A stretch of 64,000 bases of DNA, from the NCBI GenBank assembly GCA_947471505.1, contig CANIWM010000017.1, positions 1-64,000 on the forward strand. The letters run 5' to 3'. The position numbers and the translations under genes are program-made. The notes below the pieces were generated by a model, which saw nothing but the letters and a program-made list of their open reading frames with translations, was not told the origin of the DNA and searched no databases. Of the stretch, positions 1-6,405 are shown one piece after another. Numbering within the stretch: position 1 is the stretch's first letter; every line of letters begins with the position of its first letter. The DNA is from Chthoniobacteraceae bacterium. Its GTDB lineage: Bacteria > Verrucomicrobiota > Verrucomicrobiia > Chthoniobacterales > Chthoniobacteraceae.

Positions 1-62
1 TCGTCCTGGCCAATTATTGCTTTGAGTTCACTCACGGTCTTCTTATTCTTTTTATGGGTCAT
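1..62 (-). CDS. Possible transposase N-terminal fragment, runs off the left edge
   Basis: An ATG on the minus strand at 62-60 opens a frame that stays open to the window edge and reads MTHKKNKKTVSELKAIIGQD. A basic start followed by an ELKAIIGQD-like helix resembles, from memory, the first residues of IS256/mutator-type transposases, but 20 residues are not enough to prove the family. The context supports it: base composition is clearly lower in GC than the neighbouring host DNA until about 145, and the plus-strand gene beyond has lost its N terminus. The alternative is an ordinary small host gene. Confidence 0.4.
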   Translation of the reverse strand, partial: MTHKKNKKTVSELKAIIGQD

Positions 63-148
63 GGTTGTTTTTTAGGTTTGGGTTGCTTGATCGCTCCCTT
101 CCTTACCATGACCCGCTTTCTTTTTGCTGAACTCTTCGCACTCTACCC
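1..148. mobile_element. Putative end of an insertion sequence
   Basis: This is the right-hand end of an element most of which would lie to the left of the window. It holds the putative transposase start (minus strand, 62) and about 85 bases of AT-richer DNA. A 10-bp perfect inverted repeat, GGGTCATGGT at 56-65 and ACCATGACCC at 105-114, lies inside it. Coding DNA of a PEP-CTERM protein begins abruptly around 149. The exact terminus, terminal repeat and target duplication cannot be set without the other end. Confidence 0.35.
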
Positions 149-172
149 ACCGCGAGCACCGCCAATGCGGGC

Positions 173-1237
173 GTGGATACCCTCAGCCATATCTACACCG
201 GCACCACCGCCACCGGAGGCTCCTCCTATTTCTACGGAAATGGAGCCCAGCTCGGCAGCGGCACCGGAGCGCTCCAAGGGCCTAACGGCCTTTCCCTCGG
301 CGGCGCTTCGACCGAAAACTCCAACGGCGACATCGGCGAACTCCTCGTCTTCACCAGCGTGCTCACCTCGCAGGAACGCGGAGAAGTCGAAGCCTACCTG
401 AACCGCAAATGGAAAGGCGGCAACGCCAACATCCTGCCCACCACCACCGCACTTTCCCTCACCACATCCGGCGCGACGCTCGACTTAAACGGCGTCACCC
501 AAACCGTCGCATCTCTCAGCGGCGTCGCAGGAACCAGCATCGCGCTCAACGGAGGCGCACTCACCGTAGGCGGTGCGACCAGCACCGTCTTCGCGGGCGA
601 CATCAGCGGCAGCGGAGCACTCACCAAAGTCGGAAGCGGCACCTTGGAACTCAGCGGCACCAGCACACCCACCGGTGGCCCCATCCTCGTCCAAGGGGGC
701 ACATTACTTCTCACAGGCAGCCTCAGCGGCAGCCTCGTAGAAGTCCAAAGCGGCGGCACGCTCGGCGGAACCGGCACCATCGGCGGCGATCTCTACATCA
801 CTGGAACCGGCAAACTCTCGCCCGGCACCAGCCCCGGCACGCTGACCGTCACCGGCAGCACGCTCGATTTTAGCGACGCCGTCTTCGCCACAAATACGCA
901 CGCACTCGTCTTCGAACTAGGCAGCACGAGCGACCGAGTGAACGTCACCACCGGGCAACTCGGCATCGGCACCGGGGTGCTGGAGTTTGACGACTTCACG
1001 TTCACCGAAAGTGCGGGATTTGGCCCCGGCACCTACACGCTATTCGATAGCACTCAAGACCTCTTCGGTGCCCTCGGTGCAAACCTCAGCGGCACCATTG
1101 TCGGCGACCTCGTCGGCACTCTCAGCCTTGCGGACACGAATAACGACATCGTACTCACCGTCATTCCCGAGCCTGGCAGCGCCATCTTCTTCCTCGGCGG
1201 GCTCTCATTACTTGCAAGTCGTCGTCGTCGGAGCTAG
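173..1237 (+). CDS. PEP-CTERM sorted surface protein, N terminus missing
   Basis: Secreted protein with a C-terminal PEP-CTERM signal: VIPEPGS, a hydrophobic stretch, then SRRRRS at the very end. This signal is normally cleaved by an exosortase, none of which is encoded here. The first 90 residues look like the tail of a LamG/concanavalin-type domain (IGELLVFTSVLTSQERGEVE). Residues about 140-180 contain an autotransporter-associated beta-strand repeat (ALTKVGSGTLELSG). There is no signal peptide. The frame is open upstream only to 131, after a TGA at 128-130, and sensible coding seems to begin near 149, so the GTG at 173 is only a nominal start. I infer a 5' truncation by the mobile element on its left. 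It ends with TAG. Confidence 0.75.
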   Translation: MDTLSHIYTGTTATGGSSYFYGNGAQLGSGTGALQGPNGLSLGGASTENSNGDIGELLVFTSVLTSQERGEVEAYLNRKWKGGNANILPTTTALSLTTSGATLDLNGVTQTVASLSGVAGTSIALNGGALTVGGATSTVFAGDISGSGALTKVGSGTLELSGTSTPTGGPILVQGGTLLLTGSLSGSLVEVQSGGTLGGTGTIGGDLYITGTGKLSPGTSPGTLTVTGSTLDFSDAVFATNTHALVFELGSTSDRVNVTTGQLGIGTGVLEFDDFTFTESAGFGPGTYTLFDSTQDLFGALGANLSGTIVGDLVGTLSLADTNNDIVLTVIPEPGSAIFFLGGLSLLASRRRRS

Positions 1238-1275: not shown

Positions 1276-4200
1276 ATGAAATCACTCAGACATATTGCGG
1301 CTGCGCTTTTTGCGGCGGCTTCGCTTCTTCACGGGGAAGTGATTATCTCGGAATTTGTCGCGGAAAACGATGGACACCTTCTGGATGTGGATGGCGAGAG
1401 TTCGGACTGGATCGAGCTGTATAATAACGGCGTGGCAGCGGTGAGTCTGGCGGGGTGGTTTTTGACTGATGATGACCAGCAGCCGTTCCGCTGGCCGCTG
1501 CCGAGTATGACGCTGGCTGCTGGCGAGCGGCGCGTCATTTTCGCCTCGGAGAAAGATCGGCGCAACCCGGCGGCGGAGTTGCACACGAACTTCGCGCTGT
1601 CGAATGCGGCGGGCGGTTACTTGGCGCTGCGCAAGCCGGATGGGACGAATCCCTCGGTCTTTAATGGCTACCCGGCGCAGCGCGCGGACATTAGTTTTGG
1701 CGAGGGGACGGTGGTGGATTCGCAGGACTTGGTGGTGGCGACTTCGGCGGGGAAGTTTTTTGTTCCGACGAGCGGGACACTCGGGGCGACTTGGACGGCG
1801 CAGGCGTTTAATGATGCGAGCTGGACGGCGGCGACGGCGCGCATCGGCTATCAGGTGAATGGGACGGGCGCGGGGCTGCCGATTGCGTATTGGACGTTCG
1901 ATGATACGGCGGCGAACAGCATCGCGACGGGGCCGGTGGCGTCCATCATCGGAGCAACCTACAACACGTCGTTCCCAGGCGCGATTGGGGAGGGGAAGTC
2001 GCTGCACTTTACGCGCGCTTCGAATACGTATGTCTCGGCGGACCTCGATGTGTCGGAAAGCGCCTACTCTTGCTCGTTCTGGTTTCGCACGACGCAGGCG
2101 ACGACGGGGCTTTTTGCAGTGGTAGATGGCGACTTGGGCGCGGGTGGGCACGACCGACATGTGTATCTCACGGCTGGGAATATCGTTGTGCGCACTTGGA
2201 ACACGGAGACGATTGCTTCGACGGGGAAGAACTATGCGGACAACCAATGGCACCATGTGGTTCACACGTTCGGCGCGTCGATCAGCGGACAGCGCATCTA
2301 TGTGGACGGACTGCAAGTGGCGTCGGGGACCAAGGCGCAGTCGGATTTTAACTGGCAGAAGAAGATCAACATCGGGTTTTCCAACGATGCGGGAGCTTCG
2401 CAATACCACGAGGGGGAAATTGACGACGTCTCGGTCTGGAGCGAGACGCTGAGCGCGGCGGCTATCGCGACGCTCGCAAGCGGAACCGCGCCGGACACGC
2501 TCGCGGGGTTCGTGCCGTTCATCACCACAAACACGCAGACCGCGATGCGGAATGTGAACGCTTCGGCGTATCTGCGCGTGCCCTTTACGGTGAACCGGCC
2601 CACGCCTTTTAACCAAGCGACGCTGAAGGTGCGCTACGACGATGGCTTTGTGGCCTACATTGACGGCGTGGAAGTCGCCCGCCGCAACGCGCCCGCATCG
2701 CCGACGTGGAATTCCACTGCTACCAGCGACCGATCGATGGGCGACGCACAGACCTTGGAGACCATAGACATCACGGCGAATGTCGGACTGCTCGCGAACG
2801 GCAACCATGTGCTCGCCATCCATGCGATGAACGACACCGTAGGGAGCACGGAGTTCTTGCTGAATGCGGAACTGAGTGGTGCGACGCTCTCGTATGGCAC
2901 GGGTATTTACATGGACCCGCCGACGCCCGGAACGGCGAACAACACTGGTTTTCTCGGCTTTGTCGGAGATACGAATTTCCTGCCGAAGCGCGGCCTGTAC
3001 ACCACGGCCCAAAACGTGGCGCTTTCCTGCACGACGCTCGGCGCGACCATCGCCTACACCCTCGACGGCACCGACCCTTCCCCGACCAATGGCACACAAG
3101 TTCCAGCACCAAATGCGACGACCGCACCGTCGGTGACGATCCCAGTTTCGAGCACGAAATACATCCGTGCGATGGCTTACAAAACAGCGTCGGGTCTGCG
3201 CTCCACCAATGTCGATTCGCACACCTACATTTTCACGCCGCAAGTCCTCACACAGTCGAACACACAGGCGGGTTATCCGGTGAGCTGGGCAGGGCGCACG
3301 GCTGACTACGGGATGGATGCGAGCGTTGTAAATTCGACGCTGCCCGGCTACAGCGTGACCGAAGGATTGGTATCGCTGCCGACGATCAGCATGATCTCGC
3401 CCATCGCGTCGCTCTTCAGCAGCACGGCACCGCTCGGGATTTATTACGATACGTCACAACGCGGCACTGCCGCCGAACGAAAGGTGAGCATCGAGTGGAT
3501 CAATGCGGACGGCTCTCCCGGCTGGCACGCGCAAGCAGGGGTGAAGCCTCACGGCAACTCCAGCCGCGGCCACGGCTTCACTCCGAAGCACCCGCTACGG
3601 CTCAGCTTTCGTGGCGACTACGGCTATCCGCGGCTGAAAGAGAACGTCTTTGGCGGGGGCGTGAAGTCCTTTGACCAACTGCTCCTCCGAGCCTGCTCCA
3701 CGGACTCGATGCCCGTGGTGGACGGTGATATTTCCGATGGCGAGCAGCGGTGGAATAACGACAAGGCGACCTACATGCGCGACCAGTATATGCGCGATGT
3801 AATGAACGACCTTGGGCATCCGAATTGCCGGGGAGTTTACGCGCAGCTCTACATCAATGGACTTTACTGGGGTCTCTACAATTTATCCGAGCGCCCCAAC
3901 GCCGCATTCTTCGCCAGCACCTATGGCGGTGATGAATCGGAGTGGGATGTTCTCAAAGACTTTCAGGAGGTGAACGACGGGGACGCGACGGCGTGGAACG
4001 CAATGGTCGCTATCGTGAACGACACAGGCATCACCGACGCCGTCCGCTGCCAGAAACTGATCGGCAATAATCCTGATGGCACTCGCAACCTCGCCTACCC
4101 GATCTACATCCACTGGCCGTCGTTCCGAGATTACATGATCGCCCACATCGCCGCAGGCGCGGAAGACTGGCCGGACCACAACTACTGGGTGGGCCGACGG

Positions 4201-6405
4201 CGCGGTGCGTTGAGCGACGGCTTTCACTTCGTCGCTTGGGATCAGGAAATCTCGAACGACTCGCTGACACGTCTCAGCGGGCGAGGGAGCAATGCGCCGT
4301 TTTCGTCGGTGGGCGACCCATCGTTGGATAGCGGCTACACATTTGGTCCGGCAAAAATCTACGACAAGTTCCGCCGAGCCGAGCCGTTCAAGACACAGTT
4401 CCGTGAGCGGATTCACGCGCTCCTTTTTAACAACGGCCCACTCTCGCCCACGGGGCAGAAAGCACGCTGGGCCGCGATCCAGACGCGCATTGATAAGGCC
4501 ATCGTCGCCGAGAGCGCGCGCTGGGGTGACGCGAACGGCGAGGGCGCGAAAAAGCGCGAGACGACGTGGCTGAACAACATGAATTACATGAACACGGCGG
4601 GCACTGGATACTGGGATGCGATCCATCCCATAGACGTCACCCGTTTTCGCAATGTGTCGCTCTACCCGAGCATCAACCAAGCGACGTTCAGCCAAAACGG
4701 CGGCATAGTCCCGGCGGGCTACCAGCTTACGTTCAACAGCACCGAGTCGCTCATCTACTACACGCTCGACGGCACCGACCCGATGAGCGCGACCGGCACG
4801 CCATCCGCCAGCGCACTGATTTATAATAGCGGGGCGACCCCCGAGAATCCCATCACCGCCAATTCGACCTGGAAGTATCTCGTATCCACCAGCGCCCCTG
4901 CTTCCACATGGAAAAATACTGGCTTCAACGACACGAGCTGGGCCAGCGGGGCGGGCCAGCTCGGCTACGGCGACGGCGACGAAGCGACCGTCGTGCCTTT
5001 CGTCGATGCGGACACCATCACTGCAGGCGTGCAGAAAAATACGACGACGTATTTCCGGAAGACGTTCACCGTCACGAACAAGACTTCATTACTCTCTGCG
5101 AAAGTCTTCGTCCTTCGCGACGATGGCGCAGTCATCCACGTCAACGGCGCAGAAATCGGGCGCAGCAACATGCCCACGACCCCCATCAGCTACGGCACGC
5201 TCGCTCTAAACGACGTAACTGGTGCGGACGAGAGCACGCTTTTCTATGAAATGAACCTCCCGCTCGCGAACCTCGTCGAAGGCACCAACACACTTGCCAT
5301 CGAGGTCCACAAATCGTCCGTGACCGAAGACGACCTCAGCTTCGACGCCCGAGTGGAGCTGCTGAGATCAAACTCCGCCACCGGCGTCACGCTGAATAAC
5401 TCGGGCGCTGTGAATATCCGGGCCCGCACCTCTGGCGGGGAATGGAGCGGAATGAATAGCGCATACTTTACCGTCGGCTCACAACCGGCGAGCGCCGCGA
5501 ATGTCGTCTTTAGTGAGTTGCACTATCATCCTGCTCCGCCGACTCGCGCGAGCGAACTCGCGATAAGCTCGGACCCCGATGATTTCGAATTTATCGAGCT
5601 GATGAACGTCGGCCCGACGACGGTAGATTTCACCGGCGCGCACCTTGCTGACGGCGTGCTTTTCGATTTCCCCACCGGCTACACGCTCGCAGTCGGCGCG
5701 CGTTGCATTGTGGTGAAAAACATCGCCGCATTTGAGGCGCGCTACGGCACTGGCCGCGCAGTCGCCGGGACCTTCGCGCTCGGCACGGGCCTCGGCAACG
5801 GCGGAGAAACTATCGCTCTCACGCTCACCGCAAACAACCTTACGACGACGCTCTTTACCATGCTCTATGACGACGCCACGCCTTGGCCTGGATCCCCAGA
5901 CGGCAATGGCCCTTCGCTCGTTTTGAGAACTCCGACGCCCAATACCAATCACAGCGATTCAACCAACTGGATCGCCAGCGCAGACAACGGCGGCAGCCCC
6001 GGACGAACCGCCGCACAAATGACCTTCTCCCAATGGCGTAATGCCTACGGCGATACGCTCGCCGCCAGCGGCGACGACGATGGCGACGGCATCCCCAACG
6101 CCCTCGAATACGCCCTCTCGCTCAACCCACTCGCGCGCAACACCAACGCGCTCCCCGCAGGCCAGCTCATTACGGACGGTGGGCAGACCTATCTCGCCAT
6201 TTCATTCCGCCAACGCCCCGCCGCCGATCTCGCGACCATCGTCGAAACCAGTGAAACCCTCGGCGTGTGGGGCACGACTCCGAGCGTCGTCCTCGTTGGC
6301 AGCATAGACAACGGCGACGGCACACTCACACAGACATGGCGGGCCGCGTCGCCTTATAGCGCAGGCAAGCAGTTCCTTCGCATCAAGGCGACGGTGAACC
6401 CGTGA
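1276..6405 (+). CDS. Large secreted CotH-kinase / lamin-tail domain protein
   Basis: 1709-aa protein with a signal peptide (MKSLRHIAAALFAAASLLHG) and a modular build. A lamin-tail domain (about 20-130) is followed by a LamG-type lectin domain (about 200-410), a beta-sandwich module (about 412-545), and a chitobiase-C/FN3-associated repeat with YTLDGTDPS (about 567-650). Then come a CotH-like kinase domain (about 735-1100), a second YTLDGTDP repeat, a second beta-sandwich and a second lamin-tail domain (about 1410-1530). A calcium-binding type stretch, DDDGDGIPNALEYAL, lies near the end. CotH is an atypical protein kinase of spore coats; in this multi-domain form it is common in secreted verrucomicrobial and planctomycetal proteins of unknown role. 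No C-terminal sorting signal is visible. The ATG at 1276 was chosen because it gives the signal peptide. Confidence 0.85.
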   Translation: MKSLRHIAAALFAAASLLHGEVIISEFVAENDGHLLDVDGESSDWIELYNNGVAAVSLAGWFLTDDDQQPFRWPLPSMTLAAGERRVIFASEKDRRNPAAELHTNFALSNAAGGYLALRKPDGTNPSVFNGYPAQRADISFGEGTVVDSQDLVVATSAGKFFVPTSGTLGATWTAQAFNDASWTAATARIGYQVNGTGAGLPIAYWTFDDTAANSIATGPVASIIGATYNTSFPGAIGEGKSLHFTRASNTYVSADLDVSESAYSCSFWFRTTQATTGLFAVVDGDLGAGGHDRHVYLTAGNIVVRTWNTETIASTGKNYADNQWHHVVHTFGASISGQRIYVDGLQVASGTKAQSDFNWQKKINIGFSNDAGASQYHEGEIDDVSVWSETLSAAAIATLASGTAPDTLAGFVPFITTNTQTAMRNVNASAYLRVPFTVNRPTPFNQATLKVRYDDGFVAYIDGVEVARRNAPASPTWNSTATSDRSMGDAQTLETIDITANVGLLANGNHVLAIHAMNDTVGSTEFLLNAELSGATLSYGTGIYMDPPTPGTANNTGFLGFVGDTNFLPKRGLYTTAQNVALSCTTLGATIAYTLDGTDPSPTNGTQVPAPNATTAPSVTIPVSSTKYIRAMAYKTASGLRSTNVDSHTYIFTPQVLTQSNTQAGYPVSWAGRTADYGMDASVVNSTLPGYSVTEGLVSLPTISMISPIASLFSSTAPLGIYYDTSQRGTAAERKVSIEWINADGSPGWHAQAGVKPHGNSSRGHGFTPKHPLRLSFRGDYGYPRLKENVFGGGVKSFDQLLLRACSTDSMPVVDGDISDGEQRWNNDKATYMRDQYMRDVMNDLGHPNCRGVYAQLYINGLYWGLYNLSERPNAAFFASTYGGDESEWDVLKDFQEVNDGDATAWNAMVAIVNDTGITDAVRCQKLIGNNPDGTRNLAYPIYIHWPSFRDYMIAHIAAGAEDWPDHNYWVGRRRGALSDGFHFVAWDQEISNDSLTRLSGRGSNAPFSSVGDPSLDSGYTFGPAKIYDKFRRAEPFKTQFRERIHALLFNNGPLSPTGQKARWAAIQTRIDKAIVAESARWGDANGEGAKKRETTWLNNMNYMNTAGTGYWDAIHPIDVTRFRNVSLYPSINQATFSQNGGIVPAGYQLTFNSTESLIYYTLDGTDPMSATGTPSASALIYNSGATPENPITANSTWKYLVSTSAPASTWKNTGFNDTSWASGAGQLGYGDGDEATVVPFVDADTITAGVQKNTTTYFRKTFTVTNKTSLLSAKVFVLRDDGAVIHVNGAEIGRSNMPTTPISYGTLALNDVTGADESTLFYEMNLPLANLVEGTNTLAIEVHKSSVTEDDLSFDARVELLRSNSATGVTLNNSGAVNIRARTSGGEWSGMNSAYFTVGSQPASAANVVFSELHYHPAPPTRASELAISSDPDDFEFIELMNVGPTTVDFTGAHLADGVLFDFPTGYTLAVGARCIVVKNIAAFEARYGTGRAVAGTFALGTGLGNGGETIALTLTANNLTTTLFTMLYDDATPWPGSPDGNGPSLVLRTPTPNTNHSDSTNWIASADNGGSPGRTAAQMTFSQWRNAYGDTLAASGDDDGDGIPNALEYALSLNPLARNTNALPAGQLITDGGQTYLAISFRQRPAADLATIVETSETLGVWGTTPSVVLVGSIDNGDGTLTQTWRAASPYSAGKQFLRIKATVNP

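Follow-up and report, generated by a model that had tools for sequence, protein, structure and literature searches.

The window analysed here, a stretch of 64,000 nucleotides, comprises bases 1-64000 of contig C17 (86,114 bases) in the 6.07 Mb, 153-contig assembly of a Chthoniobacteraceae bacterium. The contig begins inside a copy of an insertion sequence, the remainder of which lies beyond the contig end, and the element is directly followed by the 3′ part of a surface-protein gene. The features of this junction are as follows.

1..147, minus strand: left (transposase-start) end of a multi-copy insertion sequence of the IS256 type; seen in 13 contig-end copies, whose 13 flanks set the boundary.
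1..62, minus strand: opening 20 codons of the gene for the transposase, by translation; the relatives' copies run on into a Transposase_mut / IS256-family transposase.
109..147, minus strand: left terminal inverted repeat, imperfect, from the alignment of left and right ends.
148..155, no strand: the 8-bp target duplication CACCGCGA, first of two copies; its counterpart lies on contig C92, next to the right end of the element.
149..1237, plus strand: C-terminal part of a PEP-CTERM autotransporter-repeat surface protein, 362 codons and a stop; an open frame that joins C92 in frame.
149..418, plus strand: C-terminal part of a split, possibly LamG-like domain; uninterrupted homologous domains occur in genomes G001 and G008 and on the host's own contig C122.
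620..709, plus strand: PATR (autotransporter-associated beta-strand repeat), PF12951 at E 2.2e-5 and 24.8 bits against a cut-off of 27.
1163..1231, plus strand: PEP-CTERM sorting signal PEPGSAIFFLGGLSLLASRRRR, PF07589 at 18.2 bits against a cut-off of 20.7.

The minus-strand translation of positions 62 to 1 reads MTHKKNKKTVSELKAIIGQD. An earlier note, drawn from the letters of this stretch, had recognized a transposase-like start at 62, and the longer copies in two relatives, G007 and G008, do continue from it into a Mutator-family transposase. Related sequence occurs in four of the nine other genomes of the genus, G006 and G009 holding short stretches only, and the copies seen in these relatives are imperfect. 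A 298-residue part of the G007 copy (locus L038) matches PF00872 (Transposase_mut) at E 2e-108 and NF033543, the NCBIfam model for IS256-family transposases, at 305.5 bits, against a cut-off of 150, while the 128-residue N-terminal part from G008 matches PF00872 at E 1e-40 and scores 93.8 bits with NF033543, below that cut-off. Judged by these profile matches, the element is of the IS256 type, with a Mutator-type transposase that is readable only in the relatives' copies. The IS256/mutator transposase anticipated by the note was in this way recovered from other genomes; a search of the host's own contigs with the G007 copy did not find the element's central part.

The two ends are, by contrast, abundant in the host. 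Counting the window itself, positions 1-147 have 14 matches in their own genome, of which 13 lie at contig ends and the last is an internal remnant on contig C128. Over the part that aligns, twelve of the 13 contig-end left copies show 100% identity, and the remaining one, on C103, shows 99%, or 100% when 1-147 alone is used. The search for identical copies of 1-148 proposed earlier thus returned many copies of 1-147. The right end, located with the G007 copy, lies at 14 further contig ends, and contig C102 carries the last 40 transposase residues, which agree at every position with the C-terminus of the L038 protein. From the counts of ends and their pairing (below), the copy number is estimated at 14 to 19, and from the G007 copy the element would be about 1.3-1.4 kb long. 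Because these copies are near-identical, the assembly is broken at the element. Two partial copies lie away from contig ends. The left-end remnant on C128 (47 bp, 98% identical, L043 2500-2546) contributes to the final codons of a reading frame for a putative molybdenum-cofactor guanylyltransferase, and a solo 36-bp right end, perhaps a deletion scar, sits inside contig C13 (86091-86126; L058 1501-1536).

Comparison of the flanks places the element boundary exactly at 147/148, where the sequence outside 147 differs among the 13 contig-end copies; the note had put the insertion point near 148. The drop in GC that it described from 1 to about 145 is equally real, at 0.442 for 1-147 versus 0.632 for 148-1237 and 0.619 for the whole window, and a GC content as low recurs in just 13 of 3186 overlapping 147-bp stretches of the window taken in 20-bp steps. 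Terminal repeats had been suggested as a further mark of the element, and aligning the left and right ends reveals imperfect inverted repeats at both (left GGTAGAGTGCGAAGAGTTCAGCAAAAAGAAAGCGGGTCA, right GGTAGTGTCCGTCAAGATTCAGCAAAAGGCGCGGGTCA) with an outermost GGTAG in common. The IS256 family offers the closest likeness: the transposase family, the imperfect terminal inverted repeats, an 8-bp target duplication, a transposase gene that reads inward from near one end, and many near-identical copies. The present element differs in being represented in this assembly by its two ends alone. IS256 of Staphylococcus aureus OC8, as described in PMC5065196, has 19 copies, a 26-bp imperfect terminal repeat, direct repeats of 8 or 9 bp and diverse target sites. 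Multi-copy occurrence, an imperfect terminal repeat, duplication length and diverse targets are shared with the element described here, whereas host, host genes and element sequence differ (PMC5065196).

The target duplications permit left and right ends to be matched. When the 8 bases outside each left end were compared with those outside each right end (13 × 14 = 182 combinations), exact agreement was found in eight combinations, with no end used twice. When 8-mers were instead picked at random from these flanks, the mean over 2000 draws was 0.0065 pairs, with at least one pair in 13 of the 2000 and never more than one. Taking 7, 9 or 10 flanking bases yielded no left-right pair, and near-miss duplications (7 of 8 bases) added no further pairs. 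Five of the 13 left ends (C11, C33, C74, C103, C139) and six of the 14 right ends (C101, C87, C75, C120, C73, C7) stay unpaired; on C101 the outermost terminal-repeat bases are gone and the flank is thus ill-defined. Among the eight pairs is the window, whose CACCGCGA recurs next to the element copy that terminates contig C92, an exact 8-bp duplication of the 8-9 bp class that the note had proposed to look for. It could be argued that a repeat was wrongly joined to the start of C17 and that the gene is in truth uninterrupted: the first base of the window is also the first of its contig, and the assembly is split into 153 contigs. Such an assembly artefact would nonetheless have to produce exact 8-bp duplications on both sides of eight copies, and C92 is, of 14 right-end flanks, the only one that codes for the missing part of the gene; the artefact is accordingly scarcely credible.

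What the window retains of this gene is its C-terminal end. The frame is open to 1237, and the protein closes with VIPEPGSAIFFLGGLSLLASRRRRS, in which a PEP motif, a hydrophobic stretch and a basic cluster are present, in keeping with the PF07589 score just under its cut-off. No signal peptide is seen by eye in the window piece, which bears out the description of a PEP-CTERM fragment devoid of one. The partner contig supplies what is missing. Its part of the gene begins with an N-terminus holding MKTPHILRNSIATLICLAAASHA, which by eye resembles a signal peptide, and carries nine PATR / TIGR02601 repeats in two open stretches of six and three. If the C92 flank is fused to the window so that the repeat is kept once, a frame of 1285 codons stays open through the join to 1237; the gene reconstructed from its ATG would count 2092 codons, with a TGA at codon 806 and the join at codon 1732. 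Setting each of the 14 right-end flanks before the window in frame, only C92 yields a protein that matches intact homologues; the flank on C7 is also open throughout its 499 codons and matches none of them. The start of the gene had been said to be cut off by the element, and it is indeed beside the element's other end that the N-terminal part lies, in frame. Known PEP-CTERM proteins with PATR / TIGR02601 share with the present gene the repeats and the C-terminal PEP-CTERM signal; unlike them, the present gene is broken by an insertion and contains an in-frame TGA.

The first in-frame start in the window piece is a GTG at 173, and one might therefore read an ordinary short PEP-CTERM gene from there, the element being merely its neighbour. 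Against this stand the want of a signal peptide by eye, a frame without stops from 173 back to the break, a start codon that would fall within a domain shared by the homologues, and the presence of the gene's upstream part in frame on C92, which together leave the short gene a negligible chance.

The domain that spans the join, 211 residues long, exists in four uninterrupted copies in three of the ten genomes of the genus, the host's own included. Identity across the break is 49% and 43% for the two copies in G001, 46% for the host's own C122 and 45% for G008. In G001 the alignment passes the break ungapped, and in C122 and G008 gaps of 1 to 3 residues occur close to it; conserved residues around NNWLLG immediately precede the join, and the homologue alignment runs on past it. 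The three intact homologous proteins have stop-free frames of 2369, 2371 and 2629 codons. These intact homologues uphold the part of the note's claim that has the window piece start in the middle of a domain; the identity of that domain as LamG stands on less firm ground. The window piece has no LamG match in Pfam at E 0.01, Laminin_G_3 is found in one of the four intact copies at E 0.0019 and 18.8 bits against a cut-off of 27.6, and a low-confidence fold model of the domain (pLDDT 51.6) resembles lectin/LamG-type folds. Sequence and model would weakly suggest a LamG-like domain, the poor model being taken to indicate no more than a lectin-like type of fold.

Downstream, positions 1276-6405 encode a 1709-residue protein in which lamin-tail, LamG, CotH and chitobiase-C domains are recognized. 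Its 88 matching stretches in the host genome point to a large paralogous group, and orthologues of this CotH/lamin-tail gene occur in G008 (80%) and G001 (78%). In G001 (C174; L067 2-10289) a PEP-CTERM homologue adjoins the CotH orthologue in divergent orientation, as against tandem in the window, and in G008 the CotH orthologue has other upstream neighbours. For the regulator gene that lies upstream on C92, a search of the nine other genomes of the genus gave nothing closer than 32% identity. Synteny was considered as independent proof of the join and dropped: the relatives do not have the C92-C17 order, which neither proves nor excludes it.

The C92 part bears a possible second lesion, an in-frame TGA at C92 20521-20523 (L059 7076-7078). 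The intact homologues from C122, G001 and G008 do not align convincingly at this site, which was compared through a separate search. A 111-residue stretch around the TGA found its own place and ten matches, spread over five further genomes of this genus, and the search reported no stop codons inside those ten. Nine of them, those with a locus, were realigned, and in all nine the TGA position is an amino acid (glycine in seven, serine in one, threonine in one). The realigned part is stop-free in eight of the nine; L104 shows two stops in the realignment and none in the search match. By this comparison the TGA looks either private to this gene or an assembly error, and the surface-protein gene may have been hit twice, by element and TGA alike.

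This TGA bears on whether the insertion could serve as a reversible on/off switch, in which the element moves precisely in and out of the gene, as IS256 does in staphylococcal biofilm genes, the protein is made by some cells of the population, and the TGA is an error or is read through. PMC5649170 describes IS256-family elements as able to switch biofilm genes reversibly, and the present case has the transposon type in common with them as well as an exact 8-bp duplication. The switch is nevertheless disfavoured here because of the in-frame TGA, since excision alone would be insufficient unless the TGA were an assembly error; nor was an empty-site allele present among the assembled sequences that match the flanks. 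It is, in sum, a very improbable reading.

Almost certainly, then, an IS256-type element inserted into a secreted-protein gene whose halves now lie on C92 and C17. The host gene, some 2092 codons long, would have coded for a secreted autotransporter-repeat/PEP-CTERM protein; the element would have entered it near codon 1732, in the presumed LamG-like domain, duplicating the 8 target bases. Near-identical copies would then have broken the assembly, such that the 5′ part ends C92 and the 3′ part begins C17. The element ends, the target duplication, the in-frame continuity and the homologues spanning the break are direct observations; the physical link C92-element-C17 in one cell is what we infer from sequence, and the flanks could since have been swapped by recombination between copies. 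With the element present, the C92 part ends in GWITAR-stop, at a TAG five bases into the terminal repeat. Loss of the product is probable because the 5′ part stops at this TAG, short of the PEP-CTERM anchor, and a signal peptide is missing from the 3′ part.

Other genes have been hit by the same element. Seven other joined sites were read, and four proteins from joined sites were scanned with profiles. The pair C118-C113 (L009, L047; duplication GAAGGAAG) splits a gene for a type II restriction endonuclease, whose protein scores 333 bits with NF052465 against a cut-off of 290 and has no Pfam match, and the pair C67-C130 (L004, L052; duplication GGTGGGGA) interrupts a CHASE2/adenylate-guanylate cyclase gene. 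At C6-C85 the element lies near the last codons of a DUF1186/SEC-C gene; at C62-C44 the frame is open through the join, with no Pfam match. The three remaining pairs show no convincing gene at the joined site. A PEP-CTERM gene occupies one of the eight re-joined sites, and there is therefore no visible preference for such genes.

Knock-out of a surface protein by an insertion sequence is commonplace, and the event at this locus is an ordinary one. The insertion accounts for an apparently truncated surface-protein gene and changes no general view. Beyond the locus, target duplications at contig ends can re-join a fragmented genome, here at eight joins, and the assembled evidence points to a recent spread of the element, with gene disruption, in this bacterium.
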